A stretch of 38,894 nucleotides of DNA from a bacterium (GTDB lineage: Bacteria > Cyanobacteriota > Vampirovibrionia > Gastranaerophilales > Gastranaerophilaceae): the NCBI GenBank assembly GCA_017467605.1, contig JAFUSQ010000042.1:1-38894 (forward strand), given 5' to 3'. Positions within the stretch are counted from its first letter, which is position 1. Every line of letters begins with the position of its first letter. Under the pieces are notes generated by a model. The model made no database searches. It was not told where the DNA came from and saw nothing but the letters and a program-made list of their open reading frames with translations. This document shows, piece after piece, positions 3,751 through 33,768 of this stretch. Both the position numbers and the translations under genes were made by a program.

Positions 3751-4074
3751 TTATTCATCAAATAATGCACAAATCATTCTGTGAGCCAAACGAATTTTTT
3801 GACTTGGGGCATTTATTATTAGTCTGTTTATATCTTCTATTAATTCCTTGTCGGTAGACATTTGTGAAAATTTAAACAAAGTTTCCGGCTGAACATTTAG
3901 TATTTGTATCATTTTTTCAAGATTTTCTTCCTTAGGAAAATGTTTGCCAGCAATCATTCGGCTGATACTTTGAGGATCTATATCCAGTTTAGAAGCAAGT
4001 TCGCATTGTTTCATTTTATTAATTTTAAGTAATTCTTCAAGTCTTTTGCCAAACAATTCTCTTAATTTCGCCAT
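3751..4074 (-). CDS. XRE-family HTH regulator paired with the prepilin at 4214
   Basis: 107 residues. Residues 6-62 form a lambda-repressor-like HTH ('LFGKRLEELLKINKMKQCELASKLDIDPQSISRMIAGKHFPKEENLEKMIQILNV', helix-turn-helix centred on 'CELASKLDIDPQSISRM'). The remaining 45 residues form a helical C-terminal segment, probably for dimerisation. The start has a good ribosome site (TAGGAG, 7-base spacing). It is divergent from the prepilin gene at 4214. The shared 139-bp intergenic region has four copies of ACATGTTA, which I infer to be its operators. It is probably a repressor of the prepilin gene and of itself. Sign of regulation and inducer are unknown. Confidence 0.85.
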   Translation of the reverse strand: MAKLRELFGKRLEELLKINKMKQCELASKLDIDPQSISRMIAGKHFPKEENLEKMIQILNVQPETLFKFSQMSTDKELIEDINRLIINAPSQKIRLAHRMICALFDE

Positions 4075-4090
4075 AAATGCTCCTATTTAG

Positions 4091-4200
4091 ACATGTTACT
4101 ACATCTAATTTGTAAATACATAGAGTGGTATGTTGACAAAAACATAATAAACATGTTATTGTACTACATGTTATTTTCAAAAACTAAACATGTTACTACA
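4091..4200. promoter_or_regulatory. Operator array ACATGTTA x4 between XRE and prepilin genes
   Basis: ACATGTTACTACA occurs at 4091 and 4188, and ACATGTTATT at 4151 and 4166. A -35 TTGACA (4133-4138) lies 18 bp before TATTGT (4157-4162), so two copies cover the prepilin -10 and start point. One copy lies just after the predicted start region and one lies in the XRE leader. Candidate binding sites of the divergent XRE protein. Confidence 0.65.
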
Positions 4201-4213
4201 AAAGGAGGGAAAA

Positions 4214-4930
4214 ATGAAACAGATGAAAGATTTTAAAATAGGGTTTACTCTTGCGGAGGTGCTTATAACTCTTGGAATTATAGGAGTAGTCGCAGCAATG
4301 ACTATTCCAACGCTTATGGCAAACATAAAGGGAATGAGAAATAGGGCGCAATTTAAGAAAACTCTTTCAACACTTAATCAAGCAGTAAGAATGAACAAAG
4401 CCAATTACGGCTGGGATTTTTCCACAATTGATGAAGACGATAACTATTGTGAAGCTTACAGTAATCCTGAAGTTGACAGAACATTTTGTGCAATATGGTA
4501 TGGAAATATGACCGGAGTAAGAAGTATTGAGCAATATGAGGTAATAAATGAAAGTAAAATAACTAACCCTGCAACTACATTTCATCAACTTGCAGATGGC
4601 ACGGTTGTAGCACATGATGGTTGGCTGTCCGGAACCGGAGGTAATACTTTGCCTATTGGTAAAACTTTATCAAGTATGCTTAGTAATATTTTTGAAGATG
4701 ATGATAACCGTCATTTTTCTTGGTACATAGGTTTTATAGATGTTAATGGAGAACTTGGGCCAAACAAATTTGTTGAATGTTCCGGAGATACGAAAACTGC
4801 ATTAGATCCCGAAAAACCTTGTGTTGTTAAAAATTCTGATATAACTGATATATTCCCTGTAATATTTCATGATGATGTAATTGAACCTGTAACAAACGCT
4901 GCAAAATATGTTCTGAATACTGCAAAATAG
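4214..4930 (+). CDS. Prepilin-like protein (YVLNTAK type)
   Basis: 238 residues from ATG 4214, chosen because AAAGGAGGG lies 4-5 bases upstream; the in-frame ATG at 4190 falls inside an operator repeat. Leader 'MKQMKDFKIG' then F11 'FTLAEVLITLGIIGVVAAM': the prepilin peptidase (PilD) site G/F and Glu5 are canonical. The hydrophobic N-terminal helix is followed by 'R.QFKKTLSTLNQAVRMNKANYGWDF' and a globular domain with Cys pairs, a 'FIDVNGELGPNK' loop that may bind calcium (as in GspG-type pseudopilins; inference) and the ending 'YVLNTAK'. No pilus assembly genes are nearby, so assembly genes must be elsewhere. Divergent from its XRE partner at 3751. Confidence 0.88.
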   Translation: MKQMKDFKIGFTLAEVLITLGIIGVVAAMTIPTLMANIKGMRNRAQFKKTLSTLNQAVRMNKANYGWDFSTIDEDDNYCEAYSNPEVDRTFCAIWYGNMTGVRSIEQYEVINESKITNPATTFHQLADGTVVAHDGWLSGTGGNTLPIGKTLSSMLSNIFEDDDNRHFSWYIGFIDVNGELGPNKFVECSGDTKTALDPEKPCVVKNSDITDIFPVIFHDDVIEPVTNAAKYVLNTAK

Positions 4931-4942
4931 AGGTAAATTTAC

Positions 4943-4968
4943 TGTCGGTACAGCAATGCCGACCTACA
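4943..4968. repeat. Imperfect palindrome TGTCGGTA...CCGACCTACA
   Basis: Left part GTCGGTA and right part CCGACCTAC around CAGCAATG. It resembles dispersed REP/MITE-type repeats; it begins 13 bases after the prepilin stop and may also act as a weak hairpin terminator. Confidence 0.55.
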
Positions 4969-4974
4969 TTACTA

Positions 4975-5026
4975 CCCTCTCCCATTGGGAGAGGGAGTGT
5001 TGACAGTTCCTCCCCGGCGGGGGAGG
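4975..5026. repeat. Two GC-rich perfect hairpins
   Basis: CCCTCTCCCA/TGGGAGAGGG (4975-4995) and CCTCCCC/GGGGAGG (5009-5026). Their GC content is far above the surroundings. Part of the first (CGCACCTTGTGGGAGAGGG-like) recurs inside the leader of the prepilin at 18290. Confidence 0.65.
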
Positions 5027-5046
5027 TTAGGTGGGGTACATTATTT

Positions 5047-5120
5047 GTCATTCTGAACTTGATTCAGAATCTATTTCAAAACAGACTGGATTGCTTCGGT
5101 CGTTCCTCCCTCGCAATGAC
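5047..5120. repeat. Dispersed repeat GTCATTCTGAAC...GCAATGAC
   Basis: Begins GTCATTCTGAACTTGATTC and ends CGCAATGAC, with GTCATT and AATGAC as terminal inverted ends and an inner CTGAAC/TTCAG hairpin. Related copies occur at 18371-18434 and 32578-32710. Confidence 0.65.
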
Positions 5121-5408
5121 ATTTACGATTTATTAATATGTGCTTCAGCACCGTATTGGACTTAACGGTCTTATCGGTCTTAACGGACTTTGGACAATAT
5201 TGAGATTCTTCGCTCACTTCCGTTCCCTCTAAATGACAACTTTATTCTGCCCCGATTGAGGAAGCGGCACGAAGTGCCAAAGGGGAATTATCCCGTAGGG
5301 AAATGGGAAATAAGTAATAAGAGCGATAAGACCGTTAAATACTTATTACCCTATTACCTTATTAACTTACCATATTTATGCTAAAATGTATCTGAAAAAG
5401 AGGGATAT

Positions 5409-7094
5409 ATGTTTGACAGAAAAAAAGTGTTGGGGTGTATTTTAGGTCTTATTTTAATAGCTTGCGCTATTTGGGCAAGAATCTTATATGTTGGAACTGA
5501 CCTTTGGTATGATGAAGCATGTTCTTGGTTTACAGCCAAACAAAGTTTTCCTTTTGGAATTATGGATAATCTTTTACACAGAGATTTACAACATACTCCG
5601 TTATACTTTTTTGTACTTCATTTTTGGATAAAAATGTTTGGCAATAGCGAGATTGCAATGAAATCTTTGTCTGTAATTTTCGGAATTTTAACCGTTCCCC
5701 TTGTTTATATAACCTCTAAAAAAATATTTGATAAATTTATTTCTATAAGTGCTGCCATTATCGCTTCAATCAGCCCGTTACTTATTTATTTTGCAGCTGA
5801 AGTCAGAATGTACCCTATAGTTGTATTTCTTGTTTTGTTATCTCTTAATTATTTAATAGATTTTGAACAAAAAAGAGATAATAAATCTTTAATAAAACTT
5901 GTTATTGTAAATCTATTAATCCCTTACACATTGGTTGGCGGAATTTTTTACAATATATCTCTGGCAATTTGCTATGGGAAATATTTATGTAAAGAGCACA
6001 AAGATGTTTTAAAAAAATACTTAAAATCTGTTATATCGGAATTTATTTTACTTATTCCATATTTTATTTTAATAGGTTACTACGCAAAAATGCGTTGGTT
6101 ATTTGTATTAAAACACGAAGGGGCATTGAATTTTGTACATATTGTTGATTTAATAAGAAACTTTTTTGCAATCGAACTTGTTAAAAACATATATTGGCCG
6201 TCAAATGATCCATATACAATGAATTTTATTTTCACTTTACTCGTTGTTGTGCCTGTTGTGTATTTTTTATACGGATTAATTTCAGGATACAAAAAATCCG
6301 ATAAATTCATAAAAGTTCTTTATAATTTATTTATTTTAAGTTTTGTTTTTTCGATTATTAGTGCACTTTTGCAAATTAATGTTTTTACAGTGAGATATAT
6401 TTTATATCTTCTTCCTCCTTTTATAATATTATCTGTTGCAGGACTTTATAAAAATCTGAATAAAAAACATTTTATAGGATTTATAGCATTTTTCACAATC
6501 GGTTCAATTTATTCAAATTATCAATATTACAAAATCGAAAAACCGCTAAAAACTATGGCATTTAAAACTGTCAAGATAGAATCCGACAGACTTGGGTTAA
6601 CTCCTGATGATATTATTATAATGCCGTTTGGTTCAGATGCACCTTATTATTTTAGGAAATTAAGCGACCCGAGAGTCTTAGATTTTGATTTACATAAAGA
6701 ATTACGAAATCCGTACAATGATAAATTCTATGATAAAGATCAACAAAAATTAATGGATAAAAAAGATAAATACAGTTTAATTTTTGACAGAATTTTTGAT
6801 GATAACAGTTTTTCTAAAACTCATCTTGAATATTTTATAAATAACATTAACAGAACAGTAGACTCAGGACATTACGTTTTAATAGCTTTATACGGCTCTG
6901 ATGCAAATGCAATAGTAACAGTTGATAATATGCGCAAATCAATAAAAAGTCCGGCAGATGTAAAAAATAACATAACAATTATATTACTGCAAAAATATCT
7001 ATTGGATATAAGAGTTATGCTTGATGTGGATTTCAACTTCTTAGGAACATATACAAAAGATAACTACACATTTCTGCTATTCCAAAAAAAATAA
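5409..7094 (+). CDS. Integral membrane glycosyltransferase, ArnT/PMT (GT39/GT83-like) type
   Basis: 561 residues with about 11-12 hydrophobic segments in the N-terminal 380 residues and a soluble C-terminal part. The early periplasmic loop has 'DLWYDEACSWF', the conserved acidic motif of the GT-C fold (dolichyl/undecaprenyl-phosphate sugar transferases such as PMT and ArnT). 'HRDLQHTPLYFFVLHFW' and 'AAEVRMYP' are further motifs of the family (PMT_2-like). It would transfer a sugar from a polyprenyl-phosphate donor to lipid A, glycan or protein on the outer face of the inner membrane. The acceptor is not evident. Start has AGAGGG 4-5 bases upstream. It is a single gene with no sugar-pathway neighbours. 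Confidence 0.82.
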   Translation: MFDRKKVLGCILGLILIACAIWARILYVGTDLWYDEACSWFTAKQSFPFGIMDNLLHRDLQHTPLYFFVLHFWIKMFGNSEIAMKSLSVIFGILTVPLVYITSKKIFDKFISISAAIIASISPLLIYFAAEVRMYPIVVFLVLLSLNYLIDFEQKRDNKSLIKLVIVNLLIPYTLVGGIFYNISLAICYGKYLCKEHKDVLKKYLKSVISEFILLIPYFILIGYYAKMRWLFVLKHEGALNFVHIVDLIRNFFAIELVKNIYWPSNDPYTMNFIFTLLVVVPVVYFLYGLISGYKKSDKFIKVLYNLFILSFVFSIISALLQINVFTVRYILYLLPPFIILSVAGLYKNLNKKHFIGFIAFFTIGSIYSNYQYYKIEKPLKTMAFKTVKIESDRLGLTPDDIIIMPFGSDAPYYFRKLSDPRVLDFDLHKELRNPYNDKFYDKDQQKLMDKKDKYSLIFDRIFDDNSFSKTHLEYFINNINRTVDSGHYVLIALYGSDANAIVTVDNMRKSIKSPADVKNNITIILLQKYLLDIRVMLDVDFNFLGTYTKDNYTFLLFQKK

Positions 7095-7126
7095 TTATTC
7101 CTAAATATGAATGATGATTTTCTTTG

Positions 7127-7148
7127 CAAAATTATTATAATAATTTTG
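7127..7148. promoter_or_regulatory. Perfect 22-bp AT-rich palindrome over a promoter -10
   Basis: Arms CAAAATTATTA and TAATAATTTTG meet without a spacer. TATAAT (7136-7141) lies in the palindrome, and the ATG of the next gene follows at 7150. It could be an operator or a terminator of the glycosyltransferase gene; there is no following T-run. Confidence 0.5.
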
Positions 7149-7149
7149 T

Positions 7150-7533
7150 ATGAAAAAAATATTTGCTGTAATTTTTATTTTAATATCTGTTTCTTGTTGT
7201 TTTGCACAAGAAAGCGATACAAATTGGCAAAAAGTTGCGGAGAACAACTATATAAATCCTGATGGCATAGTAAATATTGAGAATTTTAAATATTCTTTTT
7301 TACTAAAGGCTTATAATAAAGGGCAATATGAGCCAATGTACGGTAAAAAAATATGGTACACATTGAGTCAATACACTCTTGATTGTTCTGAAAAAACCTA
7401 TAAAATCGGAGTAATTGATTCTTACGGTTACGAAGATAATTTTATAAATGGGGATTACAACAGATATGCAGATTTTCAACCTATAGTTCAGGGCTCTGCA
7501 GTTGGAGAAGTTGCAAAATTCTTATGTAAATAA
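7150..7533 (+). CDS. Exported small protein resembling surface-adhesin E domain
   Basis: 127 residues. Signal peptide 'MKKIFAVIFILISVSCCFAQ' (Cys pair just before the cleavage region; lipoprotein processing is possible but the lipobox is poor). The mature part has 'NWQKVAENNYINPDGIVNIENFKYSFLLKAYN', a central Cys in 'YTLDCSEKTYKIG' and a terminal Cys in 'VAKFLCK'. The pattern (W...v.....yiD..., K......dC...y......Y...g......v..gs....v..C) resembles the Adhesin_E/protein E-like fold, where the two Cys form a disulfide. This is a pattern judgement of moderate strength. The start has almost no leader (ATG 9 bases after the -10). The stop overlaps the start of a hairpin repeat at 7535. Confidence 0.7.
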   Translation: MKKIFAVIFILISVSCCFAQESDTNWQKVAENNYINPDGIVNIENFKYSFLLKAYNKGQYEPMYGKKIWYTLSQYTLDCSEKTYKIGVIDSYGYEDNFINGDYNRYADFQPIVQGSAVGEVAKFLCK

Positions 7534-7534
7534 A

Positions 7535-7590
7535 GGTGCAAATTTCCTGACTTCCACGTTCCGTTTCTGTTTGACAAGGAAATTTGCACC
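7535..7590. repeat. Long hairpin element, copy A
   Basis: Arms GGTGCAAATTTCC (7535-7547) and GGAAATTTGCACC (7578-7590) are perfectly complementary around a 30-base loop containing CCACGTTCCGTTTC and TGTTTGAC. A homologous element with different but again complementary arms lies at 21984-22041. Confidence 0.75.
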
Positions 7591-7622
7591 GTAAAATTAC
7601 CCTATTTAGAAAAATATTTATA

Positions 7623-7961
7623 TTATGCAGCTACATCTAATTTTTGTCCGACAACCGTTTCTTGTTGTTTTGGTTCTGCCGGTTCAGGCTTAGTTTCTGC
7701 AACGACCTTTGTATCTGCAGATTTTTGAGAAATTTCAACTGTATCAGTTTCCGGAGATTTTTCCAATTTTAAATCAGCAATATTCGGTAATTCTTTTGTT
7801 ATAAAATCCTCTAACGGAATTTGACGAACTCCGTTTTTATCCCCAACAAGAGTAACAATACCGTCTTTTTTAGTTGCCGTAACAGCTTCTCCATCTTTTG
7901 TCATATACTTAATAGTTGTAAACGGCTGCAAAGGCTGCGTTTGAGTAACTGCATCTACCAT
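7623..7961 (-). CDS. Hypothetical protein with disordered acidic tail
   Basis: 112 residues. A compact N-terminal part ('TIKYMTKDGEAVTATKKDGIVTLVGDKNGVRQIP...DFI') looks like a small beta domain. The C-terminal 45 residues are rich in Thr, Glu, Lys and Pro ('ETKPEPAEPKQQE') and are probably disordered. No signal peptide. AGGTAGGT ribosome site upstream. I do not recognise the family. Divergent from the PadR gene at 8070. Confidence 0.6.
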   Translation of the reverse strand: MVDAVTQTQPLQPFTTIKYMTKDGEAVTATKKDGIVTLVGDKNGVRQIPLEDFITKELPNIADLKLEKSPETDTVEISQKSADTKVVAETKPEPAEPKQQETVVGQKLDVAA

Positions 7962-8034
7962 ATATCTACCTACCTTTCTTTATAGTTTAGTTAATAACGG
8001 TGAAAATTTATAATTGATATAATATTAAATAATC

Positions 8035-8063
8035 TTTACATTTCTTCAATTTATTGATATGCT
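8035..8063 (+). promoter_or_regulatory. Promoter of padR-like gene, apparently leaderless
   Basis: -35 TTTACA (8035-8040), 17-bp spacer, -10 TATGCT (8058-8063). The A of the start codon (8070) is exactly 7 bases after the -10, and no Shine-Dalgarno is present. Confidence 0.5.
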
Positions 8064-8069
8064 AAGAAT

Positions 8070-8597
8070 ATGATTGATTTAATGATTTTATACGTTTTGC
8101 TAAAGCACGATCTTACAATGTATGCTATACATAAACGTATTCAAGAGAATTTTTTGGCTTATACAAGTCCAAGTTTTGGGGCAATAAAACCATCTCTTGT
8201 CAGACTTGAAAAACAAGGGTGCATAAGTTCCTCAAAAATTATGTCTGACGGCGGAAAATTATCCGTATACTATTCAATCACAAAAGAAGGTCTTAGAGAG
8301 TTAAAAGCTTTACTATTAAAGCCGTTATCTTCAAATCCTTTACAATTTTTATCAGATGCCAGAGTTAAATTGTCCTGCATATCATTTTTAGATAAAGAAA
8401 GCAGCGAGGAAGTCTTTGAAAATATTAAATCAAATGCCCTAATGCATAAAGTTAATGCAGAAAAAATTTTAGCTGATGAATACACTCCGCTTACTTTTCA
8501 TCAGAGAATTGTACTTGATAATACAATTTGTGAATATAAAAATTTCATATCAATGGTAGAAGGTTTAGAAAAAGATAATGCCGGCAATAGTAAATAG
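8070..8597 (+). CDS. PadR-family transcriptional regulator
   Basis: 175 residues. The N-terminal winged helix is typical: 'ILYVLLKHDLTMYAIHKRI', 'SPSFGAIKPSLVRLEKQGCISSS', wing 'GGKLSVYYSITKEGLRELKALL'. The C-terminal half is the helical PadR (Vir-like) dimerisation region. PadR proteins repress genes for detoxification or transport in response to small molecules. The gene overlaps the next gene (DUF512 radical SAM) by 20 bases, so the two are probably co-translated, though a functional link is only inferred. The translation start probably coincides with the transcript start. Confidence 0.85.
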   Translation: MIDLMILYVLLKHDLTMYAIHKRIQENFLAYTSPSFGAIKPSLVRLEKQGCISSSKIMSDGGKLSVYYSITKEGLRELKALLLKPLSSNPLQFLSDARVKLSCISFLDKESSEEVFENIKSNALMHKVNAEKILADEYTPLTFHQRIVLDNTICEYKNFISMVEGLEKDNAGNSK

Positions 8598-9855
8598 TGT
8601 TTTAGAAAATTCAATAGCCGAAGAACTTGAAATAGAAAAAGGTGACGAAATCCTTTCTGTTGATGGAATTAAAATGCTTGATATGATTGATTATAACTTT
8701 TATATGAAATCAGAATTAATAACTATTGAAATAAAAAAGAAAAATGGCGAAATTGAAGAATATGAGATAGAAAAAGATTATGATGAAGATTTGGGAATTG
8801 TATTTGAAAGTGCTGTTTTTGACAAAATTAAGCCTTGCTTAAATCATTGCATTTTCTGTTTTGTTGACCAGCAGCCAAAAGGTTTGCGAGATACCCTATA
8901 CATTAAAGATGATGATTACCGCTTATCATATCTTCAAGGAACATACATTACTTTAACAAATTTAACGGATAAGGACAAAGAACGAATCCGCAAAATGCAC
9001 TTAGGACCTTTTTATGTTTCTGTTCACACAACTAATCCCGAATTACGCGTAAAAATGCTGAGAAATCCCAATGCCGGTAAAGCTTTGGAAAATTTAGCCT
9101 GGTTCAGAAAAAATAAAATTCCGTTTCACGCTCAAATTGTTTTGTGCCCCGGAATAAATGACGGAAAAGAACTGGATAGAACTCTGTCAGATTTGGAAAA
9201 GTTAAAAAAAACAGTTCTATCCGTTGCTATTGTTCCTGTCGGAATTACTCAATTTAGGGGAGAAAACAACTTAAATAACCTAAAATCAGTTGATGAAAAA
9301 TGCGCAAAAGAAACTTTAGAAATAGCTTCAAAATATAAAAGAGTTTGCTGTTCTGATGAATTTTTCCTGCTTGCAAATGAACCAATACCACCCGCAAAAT
9401 ATTATGGAAATTTCTGCCAGTTAGATGACGGTGTCGGTTCATTAAGATTAACTCTTGATGATTTTTATAAATTAAAACTTCCAAAAAAAATCTCCAAACC
9501 GTTTAAAATTGTTTTTGCCTGTTCTTATGCTGCCAAAAATATGCTTGATGAAATTTCAATAAAATTGAATAAAATCAAAAATTTAGAAGTTAAAATATGC
9601 CCGGTTAAATCAGAATATTGGGGTCAAGATATAACAGTTGCCGGTTTAATCACAACAGAAGATTTAATAAAAACCGTAAAAAATGAAATCTGTGATATTG
9701 TTGTAATCCCTTCAGTTATGCTTCGTCCGTATAGTGAAGATTTTCTTGACGGAAAAAATCTGGATTACGTAAAAGAACAATCCGGAAAGAAATTTTTTGT
9801 CCAACAAAATATATATTCATTAAAAGAAGTGGTAGAATTTATCTCTCAATTATAG
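8578..9855 (+). CDS. PDZ-like / radical SAM / DUF512 protein
   Basis: 425 residues. The N-terminal PDZ-like domain is 'PAIVNSVLENSIAEELEIEKGDEILSVDG' (residues 1-60). The iron-sulfur motif 'CLNHCIFCFVDQQPKGLR' (C-x3-C-x2-C, about residues 88-105) matches radical SAM clusters. The family features 'GTYITLTNLTDKDKERI', 'GPFYVSVHTTNPELR.KML.NP', 'QIVLCPGINDG.EL..TL', 'VPVG.T' and 'DEFFLLA' follow, with the DUF512 domain in the C-terminal third. Members are common in Cyanobacteria and Clostridia; the reaction is unknown. The start lies inside the padR-like gene. The 3' end overlaps the converging XRE gene by six bases. Confidence 0.93.
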   Translation: MPAIVNSVLENSIAEELEIEKGDEILSVDGIKMLDMIDYNFYMKSELITIEIKKKNGEIEEYEIEKDYDEDLGIVFESAVFDKIKPCLNHCIFCFVDQQPKGLRDTLYIKDDDYRLSYLQGTYITLTNLTDKDKERIRKMHLGPFYVSVHTTNPELRVKMLRNPNAGKALENLAWFRKNKIPFHAQIVLCPGINDGKELDRTLSDLEKLKKTVLSVAIVPVGITQFRGENNLNNLKSVDEKCAKETLEIASKYKRVCCSDEFFLLANEPIPPAKYYGNFCQLDDGVGSLRLTLDDFYKLKLPKKISKPFKIVFACSYAAKNMLDEISIKLNKIKNLEVKICPVKSEYWGQDITVAGLITTEDLIKTVKNEICDIVVIPSVMLRPYSEDFLDGKNLDYVKEQSGKKFFVQQNIYSLKEVVEFISQL

Positions 9856-10077: not shown

Positions 10078-10103
10078 AATTTAAATTCTACATGTATAAT
10101 GTA
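10072..10103 (+). promoter_or_regulatory. Prepilin promoter and TACAT-N5-ATGTA operator
   Basis: -35 TTGCAT (10072-10077), 17-bp spacer, -10 TATAAT (10095-10100). TACAT (10089-10093) and ATGTA (10099-10103) form an inverted repeat over the -10. Candidate binding site for the XRE protein encoded by 9850-10077. Confidence 0.65.
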
Positions 10104-10144
10104 ATTAATCTGTGATAAATACCGCACATAATAAAGGAGGATAT

Positions 10145-10795
10145 ATGAAAAATCCGGGATTTACATTAGCAGAAACACTAATAACAATAGGTATAATCGG
10201 AGTAGTTTCAGCTATGACAATACCGACACTCATTACTAAATATCAAAAATCTCAAGTTGAGACACGACTTAAACGATTTTATTCAATGATAAACCAAACC
10301 GTACGACTTTCTGCAGCAGAAAATGATGACGCAGACGGTTGGGTAACACTGAATGGAGAATATTCATACAACAAAAATCTGGAATGGTTAAAACAATATA
10401 TATATCCTTATATGAAACATATAAACTATAAACAGTGCTATAACGGCGGGAATTATAATGCAGTCTGTACGACCTTATTTGACGGCAGCGTAATGATATT
10501 TAAAATTGATACAAACGGAGCTTTTATAAAATTATTCTTAGATGGTAATATTGAAAATTTAAAAGAACGAAATTATTTTTTCTTTCAATTTAATTCAGCC
10601 AAAACCGTTGGAGGTAAGATATCAAATAGTATTAATTTTGTTGAACCAACAACGTTAGATTGGGACGGAACAAGTGTTGAAACTTTAAAAAATGATTCTA
10701 AATACGGTTATAGGCACAGTTCTGATAGCTGCCGCTTTTGTACTAAAATTATTCAACTGAACAATTGGAAAATCCCTGATGATTATCCTTGGTAA
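10145..10795 (+). CDS. Prepilin-like protein (C-terminal WKxPxxYPW type)
   Basis: 216 residues from ATG 10145, which has AAAGGAGG 4 bases upstream; the in-frame ATG at 10112 would be almost at the transcript start. The very short leader 'MKNPG' is followed by F6 'FTLAETLITIGIIGVVSAM', a canonical G/F prepilin peptidase site. The globular part has 'YKQCYNGGNYNAVCTTLFDGSVMIF' and ends 'CRFCTKIIQLNNWKIPDDYPW'. This ending differs from the YVLNTAK type; it resembles the ending of the protein at 33064 ('CGARLIEEGKMNY'). Type IV pilin-like or minor pseudopilin; assembly genes are not nearby. Divergent from its XRE partner. Confidence 0.86.
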   Translation: MKNPGFTLAETLITIGIIGVVSAMTIPTLITKYQKSQVETRLKRFYSMINQTVRLSAAENDDADGWVTLNGEYSYNKNLEWLKQYIYPYMKHINYKQCYNGGNYNAVCTTLFDGSVMIFKIDTNGAFIKLFLDGNIENLKERNYFFFQFNSAKTVGGKISNSINFVEPTTLDWDGTSVETLKNDSKYGYRHSSDSCRFCTKIIQLNNWKIPDDYPW

Positions 10796-10798
10796 AAA

Positions 10799-18228: not shown

Positions 18229-18257
18229 TTGAAATACCAAATTCAATTTGGTATAAT
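18229..18257 (+). promoter_or_regulatory. Prepilin promoter with palindromic operator filling the spacer
   Basis: -35 TTGAAA (18229-18234), 17-bp spacer, -10 TATAAT (18252-18257). A perfect palindrome, ATACCAAATT and AATTTGGTAT around one C, spans 18234-18254, filling the space between the two boxes. A near-copy lies upstream of the XRE gene at 19308-19326. Confidence 0.8.
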
Positions 18258-18289
18258 TATTAATGTTAAACAACAGAAAGGAATTTAAT

Positions 18290-19276
18290 ATGCAACATGA
18301 GGTATTAGAAAGAAAATGTAAAATTGAAAATGGGGGTAAAATTAACTGTTACCCCAGGGATAAATATAATTGTCATTCTGAACTTGTTTCAGAATCTATT
18401 AAAAAACAGACCCTGAATCAAGTTCAGGGTGACATCTGTGATGTCAGTTCAAATGACAAAATTTTGGGTTCGCTTTGTAAAGTTCAGGGTGACAGGGGTA
18501 AATGCAATTCCCTCGCACCTTGTGGGAGAGGGAAGAAAGCAGCCTTCACACTTGCGGAAGTACTAATTACACTCGGTGTGATTGGTGTTGTGGCGGCAAT
18601 GACAATACCTACACTTATGGCAAATATCAGAGGTCAGCAATACCGAAGCCAATTTAAAAAGACTCTCTCAACTCTAAACCAAGCAGTACGCATGAATAAA
18701 GCTCAATATGGTTGGGAATTTTCAGATATAAACGTCAATATGTGTAATGAAGCACAAGACGATAATCCTGAAACAACGCATTCTATTTGTGCAATTATCA
18801 ATGGTAATCTAAAAGGGCATACCGCATTAAATTATACTATTTGCTCAGAAGATAGTGATTCATGTGATTACATTATTCCTATGCCGTCAGATGGCTTTGC
18901 AAGCTCAAATACCCCATATTCTGATTTATTTTCAAGACCCGGAATTGGTATCCAGTTTGCTCTTGCTGATGGCTCTATTGTCGTGTTTATAGGCCCTGAA
19001 TTGGCAAATAATTGCTACAAACCAAGTAGTTGGGAAGAAAGTAAAGGTGCTATATATTATGGTTGTGTAGGATTTATTGATGTTAACGGCATTTCGGGAC
19101 CAAATAAAGAAGTAGAATGTTCACAAGGCTCAATAGAGAACATTGGTACAAGTTCATATAAAGATTGTGTTGTTAGTACAAAATCTATGGGCGATATTTT
19201 CCCTATTGTTTTCTATGATTCAGTAGTAGAACCATTGACAAACGCTTCAAAGTATGTGCTTAATACGGCAAAATAA
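18290..19276 (+). CDS. Prepilin-like protein (YVLNTAK type) with repeat-derived 85-residue leader
   Basis: 328 residues from ATG 18290 (GAAAGGA upstream; an ATG at 18263 would be at the transcript start). Normal prepilin leaders have 5-15 residues; here 85 residues precede 'AFTLAEVLITLGVIGVVAAM'. The leader is encoded by intergenic repeat DNA: 18371-18434 is a copy of the GTCATTCTGAAC repeat, read as 'CHSELVSES' and 'LNQVQGD', and 18509-18535 resembles the CCCTC...GAGAGGG hairpin. The -1 residue is Ala rather than Gly. The body has 'QFKKTLSTLNQAVRMNKAQYGWEF', 'GFIDVNGISGPNKEVEC' and ends 'YVLNTAK'. Export and cleavage may still work, or translation may begin at an internal TTG. Confidence 0.82.
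   Translation: MQHEVLERKCKIENGGKINCYPRDKYNCHSELVSESIKKQTLNQVQGDICDVSSNDKILGSLCKVQGDRGKCNSLAPCGRGKKAAFTLAEVLITLGVIGVVAAMTIPTLMANIRGQQYRSQFKKTLSTLNQAVRMNKAQYGWEFSDINVNMCNEAQDDNPETTHSICAIINGNLKGHTALNYTICSEDSDSCDYIIPMPSDGFASSNTPYSDLFSRPGIGIQFALADGSIVVFIGPELANNCYKPSSWEESKGAIYYGCVGFIDVNGISGPNKEVECSQGSIENIGTSSYKDCVVSTKSMGDIFPIVFYDSVVEPLTNASKYVLNTAK
18371..18434 (+). repeat. Dispersed repeat copy inside the prepilin reading frame
   Basis: TGTCATTCTGAACTTG...CAGAATCTATT followed by the CCCTGAA/TTCAGGG hairpin and GTGACA. The same order occurs at 32578-32710, and the first half at 5047. Its length and phase keep the frame open. Confidence 0.75.
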
Positions 19277-19300: not shown

Positions 19301-19333
19301 ACCCTGTATACAAATTGAATTTGTATGCGGGGT
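19301..19333. promoter_or_regulatory. Palindrome/hairpin upstream of XRE gene (second operator or terminator)
   Basis: ATACAAATT (19308-19316), G, AATTTGTAT (19318-19326), close in sequence to the prepilin operator at 18234. Flanks ACCCTGT and GCGGGGT extend it to a 16-bp RNA stem with G-U pairs, so it may also end the prepilin transcript; no T-run follows. Confidence 0.6.
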
Positions 19334-19383: not shown

Positions 19384-19710
19384 ATGGACGAATTTTTAAA
19401 AAAGTTTGGTGAAAAAGTCAGAAGTTATAGAGAAGTATATGGCTACAGTCAGGAAAAACTTGCAGAAATTGCCGACGTTTCAACAAATACTGTCAATTCT
19501 ATAGAAAATGGTAAAACATTTTTTACTTATCAGACATTAAAAAATATCAGTACGGCACTCAATGTCACTATGACTGATTTGTTTGATTTTACTATTAAAG
19601 AAGATAAAGTTCAGGACAAGCTTTTAGAACAAATTATTGCCTATGCAAGACCTCTTTCTCCCGAACAAAAGACTCAAGTTGTCGGGATTCTTAAAACTTT
19701 CAAAATTTAG
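19384..19710 (+). CDS. XRE-family HTH regulator downstream of the prepilin at 18290
   Basis: 108 residues. Residues 7-63 are the HTH ('FGEKVRSYREVYGYSQEKLAEIADVSTNTVNSIENGKTFFTYQTLKNISTALNVTMTDLF'); the C-terminal 40 residues are helical ('LSPEQKTQVVGILKTF'). It follows the prepilin gene in the same direction, unlike the other three divergent pairs. Near-identical palindromes upstream of both genes suggest that it controls both. The stop faces that of the dCMP deaminase gene 4 bases away. Confidence 0.85.
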   Translation: MDEFLKKFGEKVRSYREVYGYSQEKLAEIADVSTNTVNSIENGKTFFTYQTLKNISTALNVTMTDLFDFTIKEDKVQDKLLEQIIAYARPLSPEQKTQVVGILKTFKI

Positions 19711-26426: not shown

Positions 26427-26427
26427 T

Positions 26428-27466: not shown

Positions 27467-27472
27467 TTTTTT

Positions 27473-28762: not shown

Positions 28763-28764
28763 TT

Positions 28765-30621
28765 ATGACAGCACTAAATATAAATATTAATGATGAGCAA
28801 ACAAGAGCTCAAGATGAAATAAAAAAACAAGGATTAAGAGTTTTGGTTTGTGCAGGTACAGGTTGTGTTGCAAACGGTTCTTTAAAAATTATTGAAAGAT
28901 TTAAAGAATTAGGCGCAGATGTTTCTGCAATGACTGATTACGATAAAATGACAATCGTTCCGACAGGCTGCCACGGTTTTTGCGAACAGGGTGTTTTGGT
29001 AAGTATTCCGGACAAACACGTTACTTATGTAAAAGTAAAACTTGATGATGTTGAAGAAATTTTTGAAAGTCATATCAAAAACGACACGCCTGTTGAAAGA
29101 CTTTTATATACAGATCCGAAAACTCACGAAAAAATTCACAAAGATGAAAATATTAACTTTTATGCAAAACAAACTCGTACAGCTTTAGCAAATTGCGGTC
29201 ATATAAATGCTGAGTGCTTAGATGAAGCAATTGCAGTTAGAGGTTACGAAGCTTTAGCAAAAGTTATTGAACAAAATGACCCTGATGCAGTAATTGCTGA
29301 AATTGAAAAATCAGGATTAAGAGGACGAGGAGGCGGAGGCTTCCCAACCGGTATGAAATGGAAATTTACGGCTGCAAACAGAGGCGGAAAATCTTATGTT
29401 GTTTGTAACGGGGACGAAGGCGATCCGGGTGCATTTATGGACAGATCCGTTATGGAAGGGGATCCTCATAAACTTTTGGAAGGAATTGCAATTGCAGCAT
29501 TTGCAATTGGGGCTGATGAAGCTTATATTTATGTTCGTGCGGAATACCCGCTTGCAATCAAACGTTTAAGAAAAGCAATTAAAGATGCTGAGGAACGTCA
29601 TTATTTAGGTAACAACATAATGGGTTCTGATTTTAATTTGGAAATCCATATTAAAGAAGGGGCAGGCGCATTTGTTTGCGGAGAAGAAACAGCTCTTATC
29701 GCTTCAATTGAAGGTGAACGCGGTATGCCAAGACCAAAACCGCCGTTTCCTGCAAATAAAGGTTTGTTTGGCAGACCAACTTTGATTAACAATGTTGAAA
29801 CTCTTGCTAACGTACCCGTAATATTGTTAAAAGGTGCTGATTGGTTTGCTTCAATGGGTACAGAAAAATCAAAAGGTACAAAAACTTTCGCCCTAACCGG
29901 TGAAGTTAACAATACAGGACTTATTGAAGTTCCTATGGGTACAACTCTTAGAGAAATTATTTTTGATATAGGCGGCGGAGTTCGTAACGGAAAGAAATTT
30001 AAAGCTGTTCAAATCGGCGGACCTTCCGGCGGCTGCTTAACAGAAGAACATCTTGATATTCCGATGGATTATGACAATTTGATTAAGGCAGGAGCTATGG
30101 TTGGTTCAGGCGGTCTTGTTGTTATGGCGGAAGATACCTGTATGGTTGAAGTTGCCCGCTTCTTCCTGAACTTTACTCAAAACGAATCTTGCGGTAAGTG
30201 TGTTCCTTGTCGTGAAGGTACAAAAAATATGTTGAAAATATTAGAAAAAATCGTCGCAGGCAAAGGCGAAATGAAGGATTTGGAAATTCTTGAAGATTTA
30301 GCTTATGCCGTTAAAGACGGTTCTTTATGCGGTTTAGGCAAAACTGCTCCAAACCCTGTATTATCAACATTAAAATACTTTAGAGATGAATACATTGCAC
30401 ATATTAAGGATAAAAAATGTCCTGCAGGTGTTTGTACCGCAATGAAAAAAGTTGTTATTCAAGAATCGTTGTGTAAGGGTTGCACAAAATGTGCAAGAAC
30501 TTGTCCGGTCGGAGCGATTTCAGGAACAGTTAAGCAGCCTCACCATATTGATCAATCAAAATGTATTAAGTGTGAAGCTTGTTTAACTAACTGTCCGTTC
30601 AAAGCGATTGTTTTAGAGTAA
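28765..30621 (+). CDS. hydB: NuoF-like (NADH/FMN) subunit of bifurcating [FeFe] hydrogenase
   Basis: 618 residues. An N-terminal thioredoxin-like [2Fe-2S] domain ('VCAGTGCVANGS', 'TGCHGFCEQGV') is fused to the NuoF core: the NADH-site 'GLRGRGGGGFPTGMKW', the FMN-site 'NGDEGDPGAFMDRS', and the N3-type [4Fe-4S] 'ESCGKCVPCREGTKNM' with a later Cys. The C-terminus adds a two-cluster ferredoxin domain ('CKGCTKCARTCPVGAI', 'CIKCEACLTNCPFKAI'). This layout is typical of HydB/HndC of electron-bifurcating hydrogenases that couple NADH and ferredoxin to H2. Two bases separate it from hydC. Confidence 0.95.
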   Translation: MTALNININDEQTRAQDEIKKQGLRVLVCAGTGCVANGSLKIIERFKELGADVSAMTDYDKMTIVPTGCHGFCEQGVLVSIPDKHVTYVKVKLDDVEEIFESHIKNDTPVERLLYTDPKTHEKIHKDENINFYAKQTRTALANCGHINAECLDEAIAVRGYEALAKVIEQNDPDAVIAEIEKSGLRGRGGGGFPTGMKWKFTAANRGGKSYVVCNGDEGDPGAFMDRSVMEGDPHKLLEGIAIAAFAIGADEAYIYVRAEYPLAIKRLRKAIKDAEERHYLGNNIMGSDFNLEIHIKEGAGAFVCGEETALIASIEGERGMPRPKPPFPANKGLFGRPTLINNVETLANVPVILLKGADWFASMGTEKSKGTKTFALTGEVNNTGLIEVPMGTTLREIIFDIGGGVRNGKKFKAVQIGGPSGGCLTEEHLDIPMDYDNLIKAGAMVGSGGLVVMAEDTCMVEVARFFLNFTQNESCGKCVPCREGTKNMLKILEKIVAGKGEMKDLEILEDLAYAVKDGSLCGLGKTAPNPVLSTLKYFRDEYIAHIKDKKCPAGVCTAMKKVVIQESLCKGCTKCARTCPVGAISGTVKQPHHIDQSKCIKCEACLTNCPFKAIVLE

Positions 30622-30637
30622 GGCGATAAGTAATTTT

Positions 30638-30661
30638 GTAGGGTGGGGTACCTACCCCACC
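30638..30661. repeat. GC-rich palindrome between hydB and hydA
   Basis: GGTGGGGTA and TACCCCACC around CC, preceded by GTAG. It shares the GTAGGGTG start with the 22-bp repeat at 1194. Insertion inside an operon could lower downstream expression or protect the mRNA; it is not a terminator since no T-run follows. Confidence 0.6.
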
Positions 30662-30687
30662 GATAAAAATATTAAGAGGAAAATAAA

Positions 30688-32454
30688 ATGACTGAAGATA
30701 AAAAAACATTATTTATAGAAGGCAAAGAGGTTGAATTTACAAATGAACCGAATTTGCTTGAAGTTATCAGAAAAGCCGGTATGAATGTCCCGACATTCTG
30801 TTACAGACCTGACTTGACTCAATTTGGTGCTTGCAGAATGTGTGTTGTGGAAGTTGAATATCCTAACGGCAGAAAAATGATAAATTCATCTTGTACAATG
30901 CCTCCTGAAGCAGGCATTAAGGTTTCATTAAATACCGCAAAAACAAGACGTATCAGAAAAACCGTTCTTGAATTGTTATTGGCAAATCACGACAGAAAAT
31001 GCCTGACTTGCGACAGAAGCGGGAACTGTGAATTGCAGCAATATGCGGAAGAATATGGAATTAAAGACATAAGATTCCCTGACAAATCATTAGACGATTA
31101 TTTGCCTGTAGATGATAGCAGTCCGTCACTTGTTAGAGATGCTAATAAATGTATTCTTTGCGGGGCTTGCGTAAGAGCTTGTACAGAATTCCAAGGACAC
31201 GGGGTTTTAGGTTTTGCAAACAGAGGTTCTAAAACATTGGTTCAACCAATGGCAGGCAGACCTTTAGGACAGGTTGATTGCGTAAATTGCGGACAATGTG
31301 CGGCAGTTTGTCCGACAGGTGCTTTGACAATTAAAAACGAAACAGATAAAGTTTGGGATGAAATTACTAATCCTGACAAAACTGTTGTCGTTCAAATGGC
31401 TCCTGCAACACGTGTTGCATTAGGTGAAATGTTCGGACTTGAACCGGGAGAAAACACGATTGGTTTAATGAATGCGGCATTGAGAAAAATAGGTTTTAAT
31501 TTAATATTTGATACTAACTTCTCCGCAGATTTGACAATTATGGAAGAAGCAAGTGAATTTTTGGAAAGAATTAAAAAAGGCGAAAATTTACCGCTATTTA
31601 CATCTTGCTGCCCTGCTTGGATTAAATATATGGAAGACCAACACCCTGATATGTTAAATCATTTATCAAGCTGCAAATCTCCAATGAGTATGTTATCACC
31701 TGTATTGGTTGATTTAGTACCTAAATATTTCAACGTTGCAAGAGAAAATTTAGTAGTCGTTGCGATTATGCCTTGTACTGCTAAAAAATATGAATGCAAA
31801 CGTCCTGAAATGTATAGAAACGGCAGACCTGATACAGATTATGTTCTGACAACTCAGGAACTCGGCAGAATGATTAAAACCGCAGGCATTGATTTTAAAG
31901 CATTAAAACCTGAACCAAACGATTCTCCGTTTGGCGAATATTCCGGTGCAGGAACAATTTTCGGAGCATCAGGCGGTGTTGCGGAAGCTGCGGTTCGTAC
32001 TGCGTATGAATTTGCAACAGGAGAAGTTTTACAAGATGTTGATATTAAACAAATGCGCGGAACTTCTAATCGTTCAAAAACAATTGAATTGGATTTGAAA
32101 GGAACAAAACTTGTTGTTAGAGTTGTTTCAACACTAAGAGAGGCTGAAAAGGCAATTCAGGAAATTAAAAACGGCACTGCTAACTTCCAGATGCTTGAGG
32201 TTATGGCTTGTCCGGGCGGCTGCGTAAACGGCGGCGGTCAGCCAAGAAGCTGCGATAATTCAAAAATAAAATCTGAACGTGCAAAAGGTTTGTATAAAGA
32301 AGATACCGAACTTCCGGTTCGTAAATCTCATATGAATCCGTCAATTCAAAAGCTTTATCAAGAATATTTGGAACACCCGAATTCTCATAAAGCTCACGAA
32401 ATTCTTCACACAACTTATCGTGACAAGTTTGCAGGTTCATACAAAGACGTTTAG
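30688..32454 (+). CDS. hydA: [FeFe] hydrogenase catalytic subunit
   Basis: 588 residues. N-terminal [2Fe-2S] domain (C38, C49, C52, C69), His-Cys cluster region ('HDRKCLTCDRSGNC', 101-114), two [4Fe-4S] motifs ('CILCGACVRAC', 155-165; 'CVNCGQCAAVC', 198-208) and the H-cluster domain with L1 'TSCCPAW' (305-311), L2 'MPCTAKKYE' (361-369) and L3 'EVMACPGGC' (504-512) followed by 'GGGQP'. All H-cluster ligands are present. With the NuoE/NuoF-like partners it matches group A3 bifurcating hydrogenases. It should produce H2 from NADH plus reduced ferredoxin during fermentation. A strong terminator follows. Maturation genes (hydEFG) are not in the window. Confidence 0.97.
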   Translation: MTEDKKTLFIEGKEVEFTNEPNLLEVIRKAGMNVPTFCYRPDLTQFGACRMCVVEVEYPNGRKMINSSCTMPPEAGIKVSLNTAKTRRIRKTVLELLLANHDRKCLTCDRSGNCELQQYAEEYGIKDIRFPDKSLDDYLPVDDSSPSLVRDANKCILCGACVRACTEFQGHGVLGFANRGSKTLVQPMAGRPLGQVDCVNCGQCAAVCPTGALTIKNETDKVWDEITNPDKTVVVQMAPATRVALGEMFGLEPGENTIGLMNAALRKIGFNLIFDTNFSADLTIMEEASEFLERIKKGENLPLFTSCCPAWIKYMEDQHPDMLNHLSSCKSPMSMLSPVLVDLVPKYFNVARENLVVVAIMPCTAKKYECKRPEMYRNGRPDTDYVLTTQELGRMIKTAGIDFKALKPEPNDSPFGEYSGAGTIFGASGGVAEAAVRTAYEFATGEVLQDVDIKQMRGTSNRSKTIELDLKGTKLVVRVVSTLREAEKAIQEIKNGTANFQMLEVMACPGGCVNGGGQPRSCDNSKIKSERAKGLYKEDTELPVRKSHMNPSIQKLYQEYLEHPNSHKAHEILHTTYRDKFAGSYKDV

Positions 32455-32472
32455 TTTTTAGTATAATTTGAT

Positions 32473-32511
32473 AAAGAGGCGGCACCTTAGTATAAGGTGC
32501 CGCCTCTTTTT
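32473..32511 (+). terminator. Rho-independent terminator of the hydrogenase operon
   Basis: A 17-bp perfect stem, AAAGAGGCGGCACCTTA with its complement, around loop GTA, followed by T residues. Confidence 0.93.
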
Positions 32512-32752
32512 AGTATTAAAAAATTAAGGTAACTATATAGAATTTACCGCTAAAACGTTCCAAGAATTAACTATATAGTCATTCTGAACTTTACAAGTTC
32601 GAACAGGCGCAACGAAGTGAGCCTTGTGAGACTGTATGCATGGGAGCGAAGCGAGTCGTAGTTTCAGAATCTATTAAATTGAAAGCCCCTGAAATAAATT
32701 CAGGGTGACAGTCTCCACTATCTTGGTGGTGCCTCATATATAATCACCAAAA
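32512..32752. other. Intergenic gap with direct and dispersed repeats
   Basis: No gene. TAACTATATAG is present twice (32530-32540 and 32568-32578), the second copy adjoining the large dispersed repeat 32578-32710. Confidence 0.6.
32578..32710. repeat. Long composite copy of the GTCATTCTGAAC repeat
   Basis: It begins GTCATTCTGAAC and ends TTCAGGGTGACA. An inner segment with CTTGTGAGACTG and GGAGCGAAGCGAG splits the CTGAAC/CAGAATCTATTAAA unit, as if one repeat were inserted into another. The end part matches 18391-18434. Confidence 0.65.
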
Positions 32753-32974
32753 TTAATTATTATCAAAATTAGTAAGTTCAGAAACAGTTGTTTCCATAGT
32801 TTTTGCTATATATATAAGAGTATCAAGAGATGGTTTAGAAAAAGCAACTTCAATTTTACCCACAAAATTTAGAGACATATCAAGTTTATCAGCAAGCTGT
32901 TGTTGTGTAAGCTTTAATTCTTTTCTGCGCTTTTTTATATTAGCCCCTAAATTTTTATAAAATTGCTCGTGCAT
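32753..32974 (-). CDS. XRE-family HTH regulator paired with the prepilin at 33064
   Basis: 73 residues, single HTH domain: 'NLGANIKKRRKELKLTQQQLADKLDMSLNFVGKIEVAFSKPSLDTLIYIAKTMETTVSELT'. No Shine-Dalgarno; the ATG overlaps the edge of the first TACGTA operator, so the transcript may start at or near the codon. It is divergent from the prepilin gene with an 89-bp gap containing two TACGTA-N7-TACGTA sites. Probably autoregulatory and a regulator of that prepilin. Confidence 0.85.
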   Translation of the reverse strand: MHEQFYKNLGANIKKRRKELKLTQQQLADKLDMSLNFVGKIEVAFSKPSLDTLIYIAKTMETTVSELTNFDNN

Positions 32975-32975
32975 A

Positions 32976-33028
32976 TACGTACAGTGTATACGTAAATTTT
33001 TGTAAATAATACGTACTATTGATACGTA
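32976..33028. promoter_or_regulatory. Two TACGTA-N7-TACGTA operators
   Basis: TACGTA at 32976, 32989, 33010 and 33023: two doublets of identical 13-bp pitch, 34 bp apart. A -10 TATAAT (33037-33042) for the prepilin gene lies just after the second doublet, whose position covers the expected -35. Confidence 0.75.
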
Positions 33029-33063
33029 AAATGGTTTATAATAAAGAAAAAAGGAGGCAGAAC

Positions 33064-33768
33064 ATGAAAAACAAAAATACAGCTTTTACATTAGCCGAGG
33101 TTCTCATAACCCTCGGCATAATCGGTGTGGTCGCAGCAATGACAATTCCGGGGTTGATGAATACATATAAGAAAAAGCAATATTATACTCAATTTATGAA
33201 GGCAAGAAGTGTAATTGAAAATACGCTTAGAATGTACGCGAACGACAACGACTGTGAAATAACCGACGGAAGCTGCGATTTTGAAAAATCAGAAAATGTC
33301 GAAAAACTCGGCAGATATTTTAAAGGAGTTCAATATATTACAGAAGATAACTGTACAAAACTACTTTCGGGTTATGACAAAATGCCGGTAAAAGATTATG
33401 ACAAACAACCTGTTGATGAAGCAATGGACATTGACTACCTATGTGGAGGGGAATTAGGTTTACCAAATGAGTGGGGATTTACCGCAATTGAGGGTATGAC
33501 TTTATTTTTTGAACCTGACATTGGCTATGGTAGTGGGCATTTGCTTGATGTAAATGGGCCAAATTCAGGACCCAATGTATTTGGTCGTGATATTTTTGTA
33601 TTCTATACTCGTCCAGCAGTAGGAGAGGGTTTCTGCAATTCAATCTGGGGAGTTTCTAAAGCCTGTAAAGAGAAAAATAACTATGGTTGGGGTGCTGAGT
33701 GTTATAATGGAGACTTTAGTTCAGACTGCGGGGCTCGTTTAATAGAAGAAGGCAAGATGAATTATTAG
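33064..33768 (+). CDS. Prepilin-like protein (C-terminal GKMNY type)
   Basis: 234 residues from ATG 33064 (AAAGGAGGC in front; the in-frame ATG at 33019 lies in the operator). Leader 'MKNKNTA' then F8 'FTLAEVLITLGIIGVVAAM'; the -1 residue is Ala. Globular domain with several Cys, a 'LLDVNGPNSGPNVFGRDIFVFY' loop and the ending 'CGARLIEEGKMNY'. The DVNG..GPN..GRD.F pattern is the variant seen in many Gram-negative type IV pilin-like proteins. Divergent from its XRE partner and closed by a bidirectional terminator. Confidence 0.88.
   Translation: MKNKNTAFTLAEVLITLGIIGVVAAMTIPGLMNTYKKKQYYTQFMKARSVIENTLRMYANDNDCEITDGSCDFEKSENVEKLGRYFKGVQYITEDNCTKLLSGYDKMPVKDYDKQPVDEAMDIDYLCGGELGLPNEWGFTAIEGMTLFFEPDIGYGSGHLLDVNGPNSGPNVFGRDIFVFYTRPAVGEGFCNSIWGVSKACKEKNNYGWGAECYNGDFSSDCGARLIEEGKMNY

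Follow-up and report, generated by a model that had tools for sequence, protein, structure and literature searches.

Candidate private regulator-operator heads with exchangeable prepilin payloads in a member of the Gastranaerophilaceae

Introduction

Divergent autorepressor modules of the Xre family are known from phage repressor regions and from the C proteins of restriction-modification systems. Here we describe modules of similar build in a member of the Gastranaerophilaceae (Cyanobacteriota, Vampirovibrionia), starting from contig JAFUSQ010000042.1 of assembly GCA_017467605.1 (2.19 Mb), a stretch of 38,894 nt that is referred to as the window and in which four prepilin genes each lie beside a small XRE regulator gene. 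As in the known modules, a small HTH_3 protein, a shared intergenic region with dyads at the two starts and a divergent target are found together; in contrast, the target is here a single prepilin, more than 100 private-looking copies occur in one genome, and the target appears to be exchanged between regulators.

Three other kinds of surface system invite comparison. In Neisseria, pilE/pilS consists of one expression locus and promoterless silent pilin copies. The prepilins described here likewise form a repertoire with the conserved pilin start as the likely point of exchange, but those in pairs have promoter-like sequences in excess of shuffled gaps, and a regulator each. Bacteroides carries many surface loci with private regulators, such as the extracytoplasmic function (ECF) sigma/anti-sigma pairs of polysaccharide loci; many surface systems per genome, each with a local regulator, are common to both cases, whereas here the payload is a single gene, the regulator is small and sensor-less, and the regulatory head is separable from what it controls. 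Gut Elusimicrobia likewise show pilin gene expansions, to dozens of prepilin genes, and we know of no private-regulator arrangement at those pilins. Finally, the palindromic elements of Rickettsia are inserted in frame in genes and so resemble the interspersed repeats found here inside the coding sequence of prepilin leaders, with the difference that these leaders are presumably removed with the signal.

In the literature that we searched, mostly outside subscription journals, for pilins of Gastranaerophilales, Melainabacteria or Vampirovibrionia and for XRE regulators with pilins, no description of such an arrangement was found; PMC5877343, in the part of its text available to us, mentions single pilA-pilD genes. 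The parts of the system are thus of known kinds, and one regulator per pilin with exchanged payloads is, as far as we can tell, new. Comparison of sequences within and between species makes it probable, in our judgement, that conserved private repressor-operator heads are joined to exchangeable pilin payloads.

Results

A divergent regulator for most prepilins of the genome

Profile searches of the source genome listed at least 150 HTH_3 and at least 150 N_methyl matches. The stretches around these matches, together with loci collected earlier, amount to 668 kb of the genome and were rescanned with models built from the listed matches. After removal of matches below 25 bits (4 of 169 XREs and 1 of 179 prepilins), they contained 165 XREs and 178 prepilins, which form 114 divergent pairs; when as many prepilins were placed at random in this sequence in 500 trials, a mean of 20.3 and a maximum of 35 such pairs arose. 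A lack of enrichment of XRE genes next to prepilins had been named beforehand as the outcome that would speak against this kind of wiring, and the enrichment proved to be strong. Orientation is similarly regular: 114 of 117 neighbouring pairs are divergent, and for only three prepilins is the nearest XRE within 1 kb oriented otherwise. Among the matches listed, 150 of each kind, 99 XREs and 87 prepilins stand in divergent pairs.

The 64 prepilins outside XRE pairs include 27 that face a second regulator-like family of about 70 residues, which lies outside the XRE set and was found, for example, at loci L054 and L057. All 27 members of this family are divergent to prepilins without an XRE. Three of its proteins were tested against Pfam and fell below the cut-offs, the nearest family being DUF6471 (best score 23.6 bits, cut-off 26.8). 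Counting both families, 141 of the 178 prepilins are each divergent to a regulator-like gene of their own, and most prepilins of this genome thus follow a rule of one regulator per pilin.

Four XREs without a prepilin partner (C13:11434, C61:8779, C75:16658 and C76:8863) face small proteins that, as judged by eye, share a GG(I/V).(F/Y)(N/D).. motif near their start and are possibly a second kind of payload.

Regulator and site are kept together

Related regulators in other species allowed operators to be compared. From 80 relative pairs, 36 in which the best XRE of the source genome had less than 58% identity and 3 that were loci of the source genome itself were removed, leaving 41 pairs for 24 heads. 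The matching gap of the source genome ranked first of 113 in 29 of these 41 ortholog pairs and among the top five in 31, and 16 of the 24 heads had at least one ortholog at rank one. Within the window, the gap of module 1 (regulator 3751) ranked first for all three orthologs and that of module 4 (regulator 32753) for seven of eight, the eighth being placed 7th; for module 2 (regulator 9850) there was no first rank, the two positions being 8th and 69th of 113.

Ten aligned gaps of the module 4 head contain two sites of the type TACGTA-N7-TACGTA, 34 bp apart, the second of them exact in nine of the ten with free letters in the spacer. Orthologs of the regulator with 69-77% identity have a divergent prepilin in seven of seven cases (two in the same genus, five in other genera). 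A search blind to the regulator, using a site 1 pattern of 17 fixed bases, one two-way and one free position, found this site in 39 of 288 genomes, as a single copy in each, and the reversed pattern in none. In all 30 loci inspected of these 39, a regulator of the 32753 type (49-77% identity) adjoins the site, and in 23 a prepilin lies on the far side. Site 2 is present in 21 of the 23 loci with a prepilin versus one of the seven without; in two of these seven the contig stops soon after the site, at 396 bp (the one with site 2) and at 102 bp. Module 4 therefore has, across species, the conserved dyads at the regulator start and at the target promoter that define a divergent autorepressor-operator module, and we propose that site 1 is autoregulatory and site 2 is the site of the payload. 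The sequence-only reading had staked its case on motifs being conserved with their regulators, which the first ranks of the gaps and the recovery of the regulator from site 1 alone bear out. Comparison between species shows that regulator and site are inherited as a unit.

These data also bear on whether the XREs regulate the prepilins at all. They might be merely autoregulated, with the prepilins under independent promoters and the adjacency due to something else, such as co-mobility of cassettes. Site 1 does lie where the regulator itself begins and persists in loci that lack a prepilin, orthologs of regulator 19384 keep a similar upstream dyad without a prepilin, and the 32753 cassette occurs in different gene neighbourhoods in different species. 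We nevertheless regard this as unlikely, given the presence of site 2 in the prepilin promoter region almost wherever a prepilin is present, the near-universal divergent orientation and the adherence of a second regulator-like family to the same rule.

Exposed recognition-helix positions are better kept in orthologs (144 of 164 identical, 0.88) than matched positions (245 of 368, 0.67), a difference seen in this direction in 18 of the 24 heads (p 0.003, Wilcoxon), while among paralogs of the source genome their identity is near random (0.12 versus 0.13 at the most variable other positions). Conservation in orthologs combined with variability among paralogs would be expected of private specificity. 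The two main window motifs have exact matches in their own gaps and nowhere else within the 668 kb (30% of the genome); exact ACATGTTAnTACA, for instance, has two copies there, both in the module 1 gap. On account of these confined motifs and the near-random recognition residues of paralogs, the heads look mutually private.

Different payloads behind the same head

The prepilins behave differently from the sites. For this comparison, 9 of the 41 pairs with payloads shorter than 150 residues were dropped. In the remaining 32, the prepilin behind the orthologous head never ranked first and reached the top five once, with a median rank of 44.5 of 101. When a clear relative in the source genome was defined by at least 40% identity and at least 70% coverage, 29 payloads had one, of which 2 were from the source genome itself and were removed; none of the other 27 relatives lies behind the orthologous head, 14 being paired with another XRE and 13 with none. 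Across head pairs with an XRE identity of at least 0.5, the payload tail reaches 0.45 or more in 6 of 117, compared with 19 of 400 random pairs. A single example is given by loci L411 and L412, in which the regulators are 86% identical and the payload tails 20%, in a gene neighbourhood that is shared as judged by eye from protein starts. Comparison thus shows that one and the same head carries different payloads in different species.

Plain duplication of cassettes, followed by faster evolution of pilins than of regulators, would produce diverse prepilins without any exchange. The prepilins are indeed diverse, and some close species keep both head and payload (L348/L350, XRE 0.81 and tail 0.65; L201/L351, XRE 0.85 and tail 0.71). 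Yet XRE and prepilin similarity are almost uncorrelated within the source genome (Spearman 0.045), relatives of the payloads are absent from orthologous heads, and payload lengths at one head range from 222 to 347 residues, excluding two that are apparently cut (34 and 127). We consider duplication alone distinctly unlikely, and copying of cassettes as units was rejected in view of the Spearman coefficient together with the payload ranks.

At locus L413 (9555-11708), a prepilin-type start with a divergent XRE is joined to other domains, which we take to be head repeats of the SIAIGN type and, at the C-terminus, a part resembling a chaperone.

A probable joint near the mature pilin start

Some prepilin loci of the source genome share 94-97% identical DNA over 186-384 bp, starting within 12 bp of the first mature codon, with unrelated leaders, gaps and regulators upstream, a pattern that also argues against duplication without exchange. 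We examined 62 DNA alignments within the genome (at least 88% identity over at least 110 bp). Twenty-five start no more than 12 bp from the first mature codon; another 21 begin far upstream, 18 of them ending at +60 to +95 and 3 spanning both sides. These breakpoints suggest recombination at a joint near the mature start. A dedicated recombination site in the opening 66 bp of the mature coding sequence was considered and is not claimed: third codon positions there are skewed at some codons and not fixed, so protein constraint explains much of the conservation.

Such joints could in principle arise when draft metagenomes are assembled across repeats at prepilin starts. Contigs do end inside prepilin genes and leaders, and the leaders do hold interspersed repeats. 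Against this, the payload comparison spans many independently assembled genomes, some with few contigs (about 20 in G007), two head-payload combinations unlike those of the source genome each recur in two genomes (L348/L350 and L201/L351), and in 19 of the 25 alignments a contig stops at the near-identical payload instead of passing through it. An assembly artefact as the general explanation seems to us very improbable.

Leaders exceed 40 codons in 59 of the 154 prepilins with a recognisable start, and many are filled with repeats. Insertions in the leader would be harmless, because it is presumably removed by the prepilin peptidase. The leader at 18290-18532 of the window and many others in the genome contain in-frame interspersed repeats, and in some cases a copy of the FTLAE motif stands on either side of the insert. 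In the 500 bp that precede the mature start, the repeat word AAGTTCAGGGTGACA was counted 20 times in sense and 5 times in antisense orientation, and leader repeats are also found between genes in the window.

Promoters and assembly machinery

Gap lengths were available for 113 of the 114 pairs, one lacking a start on one side, and have a median of 139 bp; the paired regulators have 58-131 residues. For the promoter test, 22 of the 113 gaps outside 55-200 bp were left out. A sigma-70-like promoter towards the prepilin exceeded the threshold in 78 of the remaining 91, compared with 45.5 in shuffles, so the pilE/pilS arrangement of one expressed locus and otherwise promoterless copies was not found in these gaps. 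The excess towards the XRE is weaker (53 versus 41.7). Promoter scores of at least 15 were also seen upstream of 46 of 51 prepilins without an XRE, a count given without shuffle comparison. Some promoters are overlapped by dyads, most clearly at C51:39775, where ATAACGCGTATACGCGTTAT fills the spacer of a consensus promoter.

The short gaps, the promoters, the overlapping dyads and the sensor-less size of the proteins together lead us to think of each regulator as an autorepressor acting on itself and on its pilin. They might instead be activators or dose limiters that hold all pilins at a low constant level, with no off-on switching of a repertoire. Single-domain, sensor-less negative autoregulators favour a steady level, and no inducer is evident here. 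The dyads that overlap promoters facing the prepilin favour repression and do not separate a low level from switching. Activation or dose limitation, taken together, strikes us as possible but rather doubtful.

No pilus assembly genes had been seen near the window modules, which agrees with their location on other contigs. The genome has four T2SSE matches and a prepilin peptidase gene at C46:13303-14394 (73% identity to the G007 peptidase, L424 555-1670), and thus both the peptidase and the assembly ATPase expected with a type IV pilus or type II secretion system. An apparent absence of the peptidase, for which the Pfam model finds no match in this genome, was misleading, since the gene was found with the G007 protein as query; the same model scores above its cut-off in 34 of 40 genomes of the family and below it in G007.

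The arrangement in other genomes

Eighty prepilin loci of other assemblies, mostly from Gastranaerophilales, Melainabacteria or uncultured bacteria, were chosen only for the prepilin. All 25 XREs and all four second-family members found there are divergent to a prepilin; 29 of the 95 prepilins have a divergent regulator-like gene, and 15 of 95 lie too near an edge to judge. XREs divergent to a prepilin make up 30 of 54 examined in G007, a genome of the same genus, 6 of 11 in G045 and 2 of 10 in G074. In other species, fewer of the prepilins thus follow the rule.

Modules of the window

The sequence-only reading had placed a small XRE gene beside each of four prepilins, three of them divergent and one in tandem, and had named a different motif for each pair; the genes were recovered at those places and all of the motifs in the gaps or promoters concerned (Table 1). 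The regulators score 33.9, 56.0, 44.0 and 45.7 bits with HTH_3 (PF01381; cut-off 23), and all four prepilins pass the NCBIfam model TIGR02532 (17.7-19.8 bits; cut-off 16.3). Three of the four also pass Pfam N_methyl, prepilin 4214 falling narrowly below it (20.0 versus 21.2).

Table 1. Features of the window (positions in JAFUSQ010000042.1)
Feature	Position	Strand	Basis or remark
Module 1 XRE/HTH_3 regulator, 107 aa	3751..4074	-	HTH_3 match and orthologs
Module 1 regulatory gap	4075..4213		ACATGTTA at 4091, 4151, 4166, 4188
Module 1 prepilin (payload)	4214..4930	+	TIGR02532 above cut-off; AlphaFold2 model
Module 2 XRE/HTH_3 regulator, 75 aa	9850..10077	-	HTH_3 match and orthologs
Module 2 regulatory gap	10078..10144		Dyad TACAT-N5-ATGTA at 10089-10103
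Module 2 gap, second dyad TGTG-N10-CACA	~10111-10128		Read in sequence
Module 2 prepilin (payload), DUF6613 and N_methyl	10145..10795	+	Pfam and TIGR02532
Dyad TACCAAATTCAATTTGGTA preceding tandem prepilin	18235..18253		Dyad search
Tandem prepilin (18290 gene), long in-frame leader of interspersed repeats	18263..19276	+	TIGR02532
Dyad TACAAATTGAATTTGTA preceding XRE 19384	19309..19325		Dyad search
XRE/HTH_3 regulator, following its prepilin on the same strand (unusual topology)	19384..19710	+	HTH_3
Module 4 XRE/HTH_3 regulator, 73 aa	32753..32974	-	HTH_3 match and orthologs
Module 4 operator site 1, TACGTA-N7-TACGTA, proposed autoregulatory	32976..32994		One base from regulator start codon
Module 4 operator site 2, TACGTA-N7-TACGTA, proposed payload site	33010..33028		Prepilin promoter region
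Module 4 prepilin (payload)	33064..33768	+	Different prepilins behind same regulator and sites in other species

Counts of three of the motifs were set against 100 shuffles. ACATGTTA has four copies in the window, all of them in one 105 bp stretch of the module 1 gap; the clustering is the remarkable part, the count of this 8-mer not being rare by itself (17 of 100 shuffles reach four). TACGTA-N7-TACGTA has two copies, both in the module 4 gap (0 of 100 shuffles), and the single TACAT-N5-ATGTA is equalled in 5 of 100. For CAAATT-S-AATTTG, two copies (18238 and 19311) stand against a chance mean of 0.02.

In module 1, a promoter-like TTGACA-N18-TATTGT surrounds copies of ACATGTTA, and orthologs of the regulator with 66-76% identity each have a divergent prepilin beside them (L306-L308). 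Prepilin 4214, the one window prepilin that was modelled, gave an AlphaFold2 model with a predicted local distance difference test (pLDDT) score of 82.5. All 11 entries listed by VIA-align for this model are type IV pilins or pseudopilins, with Z scores of only 2.1-3.8, and Foldseek returned no match at E<=0.001; its weak hits, none significant, include several Ntn-hydrolase-type entries besides pilins.

Orthologs of the module 2 regulator have a divergent prepilin at L331-L334; at L330 the prepilin is cut or frame-broken, and L335 and L336 have none. The second dyad of this gap, which is CRP-like, reads TGTGA-N6-TCACA in L332-L334, as judged by eye. Because of this dyad, prepilin 10145 may also answer to a global regulator.

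The tandem pair is less regular. The mature-pilin motif of the 18290 gene starts near 18533, after its repeat-filled leader. None of six loci of other species with orthologs of regulator 19384 (42-64% identity; L338-L343) has a prepilin beside the regulator in the 1.5 kb examined, and dyads similar to TACAAATTGAATTTGTA precede four orthologs lacking a prepilin, as seen by eye. The view of the two genes as incidental neighbours was set aside after the rare CAAATT-S-AATTTG core, of which the 668 kb hold three copies, the third elsewhere on contig C45, was found at both promoters. Given this common core, the tandem pair is probably a variant of the wiring and not a conserved pair.

Discussion

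The arrangement of joined heads and payloads has to be weighed against several observations that do not favour it. Tests on single gaps show mild enrichment (dyads in 17 and repeats in 19 of 112 gaps at p<=0.05, with about 6-7 expected, one of 113 gaps being shorter than 50 bp and excluded) and are weak alone, which is why the comparison between species was used. In that comparison, 12 of 41 orthologous operators missed the first rank, and the 41 pairs do not count as independent, since eight come from one head. A divergent prepilin is found at only 11 of 29 other loci of the 32753 head, most of those below about 69% identity having none, and head and payload stay linked in some close species (payload tail of at least 0.45 in 2 of 7 pairs with XRE identity above 0.8). 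Fifty-one of the 165 XREs of the source genome are outside divergent pairs; about 14 of these, as judged by eye, sit close to the end of a contig, opposite frames that resemble leaders, are filled with repeats and continue past the contig end. The reach of the rule beyond this genome is also limited, with neither an XRE nor a second-family member at 51 of 95 prepilins in the loci of other assemblies, no prepilin within 1 kb of 24 of the 54 XREs examined in G007, and at least 150 HTH_3 matches in the source genome, an extreme value next to 79, 27 and 30 in G007, G045 and G074 of the same genus. The genomes are drafts whose contigs are broken by repeats, so some joints could be assembly errors, and of the 25 alignments starting at the mature codon, 19 reach the end of the contig or examined stretch before their own far end. 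Finally, the expectation that motifs co-vary with recognition-helix residues failed among paralogs of the source genome, where heads with more similar recognition helices do not have more similar operators (permutation p 0.25); a binding code could not be drawn from these paralogs, a result that agrees with no two heads being alike.

With these points counted, we still favour conserved heads with exchangeable payloads. Each head would comprise a small regulator, mostly of 70-115 aa with no room for a sensor domain, and a short gap with its own binding sites, one at the regulator start for autoregulation and the other in the pilin promoter. The payload would be one prepilin gene pointing the opposite way. 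Most likely the regulator represses both genes through sites overlapping their promoters, a mode of action that fits the architecture. Exchange would occur by recombination in the conserved prepilin start, at or near the codons of the mature start, perhaps helped by the interspersed repeats of the leader, and new combinations of switch and pilin would be formed in this way. About 140 surface pilins would each be kept off or low by a private brake, with one or a few shown at a time, and our preferred guess is that chance escape from repression would yield cells with different pilins. The sequence-only reading had suggested a separately switched repertoire with a private repressor for each member: the enrichment and the coupling of site to regulator uphold the private wiring, while repression and switching are inferred.

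Taken to its full extent, the proposal would describe a combinatorial system in which about 140 mutually private heads and a pool of pilins are re-joined at the mature-start codons, so that any pilin can come under any switch. We see the chances of this stronger form as evenly balanced. If true, few naturally occurring collections of orthogonal repressor-operator pairs of the single-domain kind in one genome would be larger. The many paralogous regulators, together with orthologs whose sites can be read directly, offer natural material for a long-standing question, the choice of DNA sites by Xre-type recognition helices. Control and gene usually evolve together; here the control appears to be conserved and the gene exchanged, which makes the arrangement a candidate surface-variation strategy for uncultured gut relatives of Cyanobacteria.

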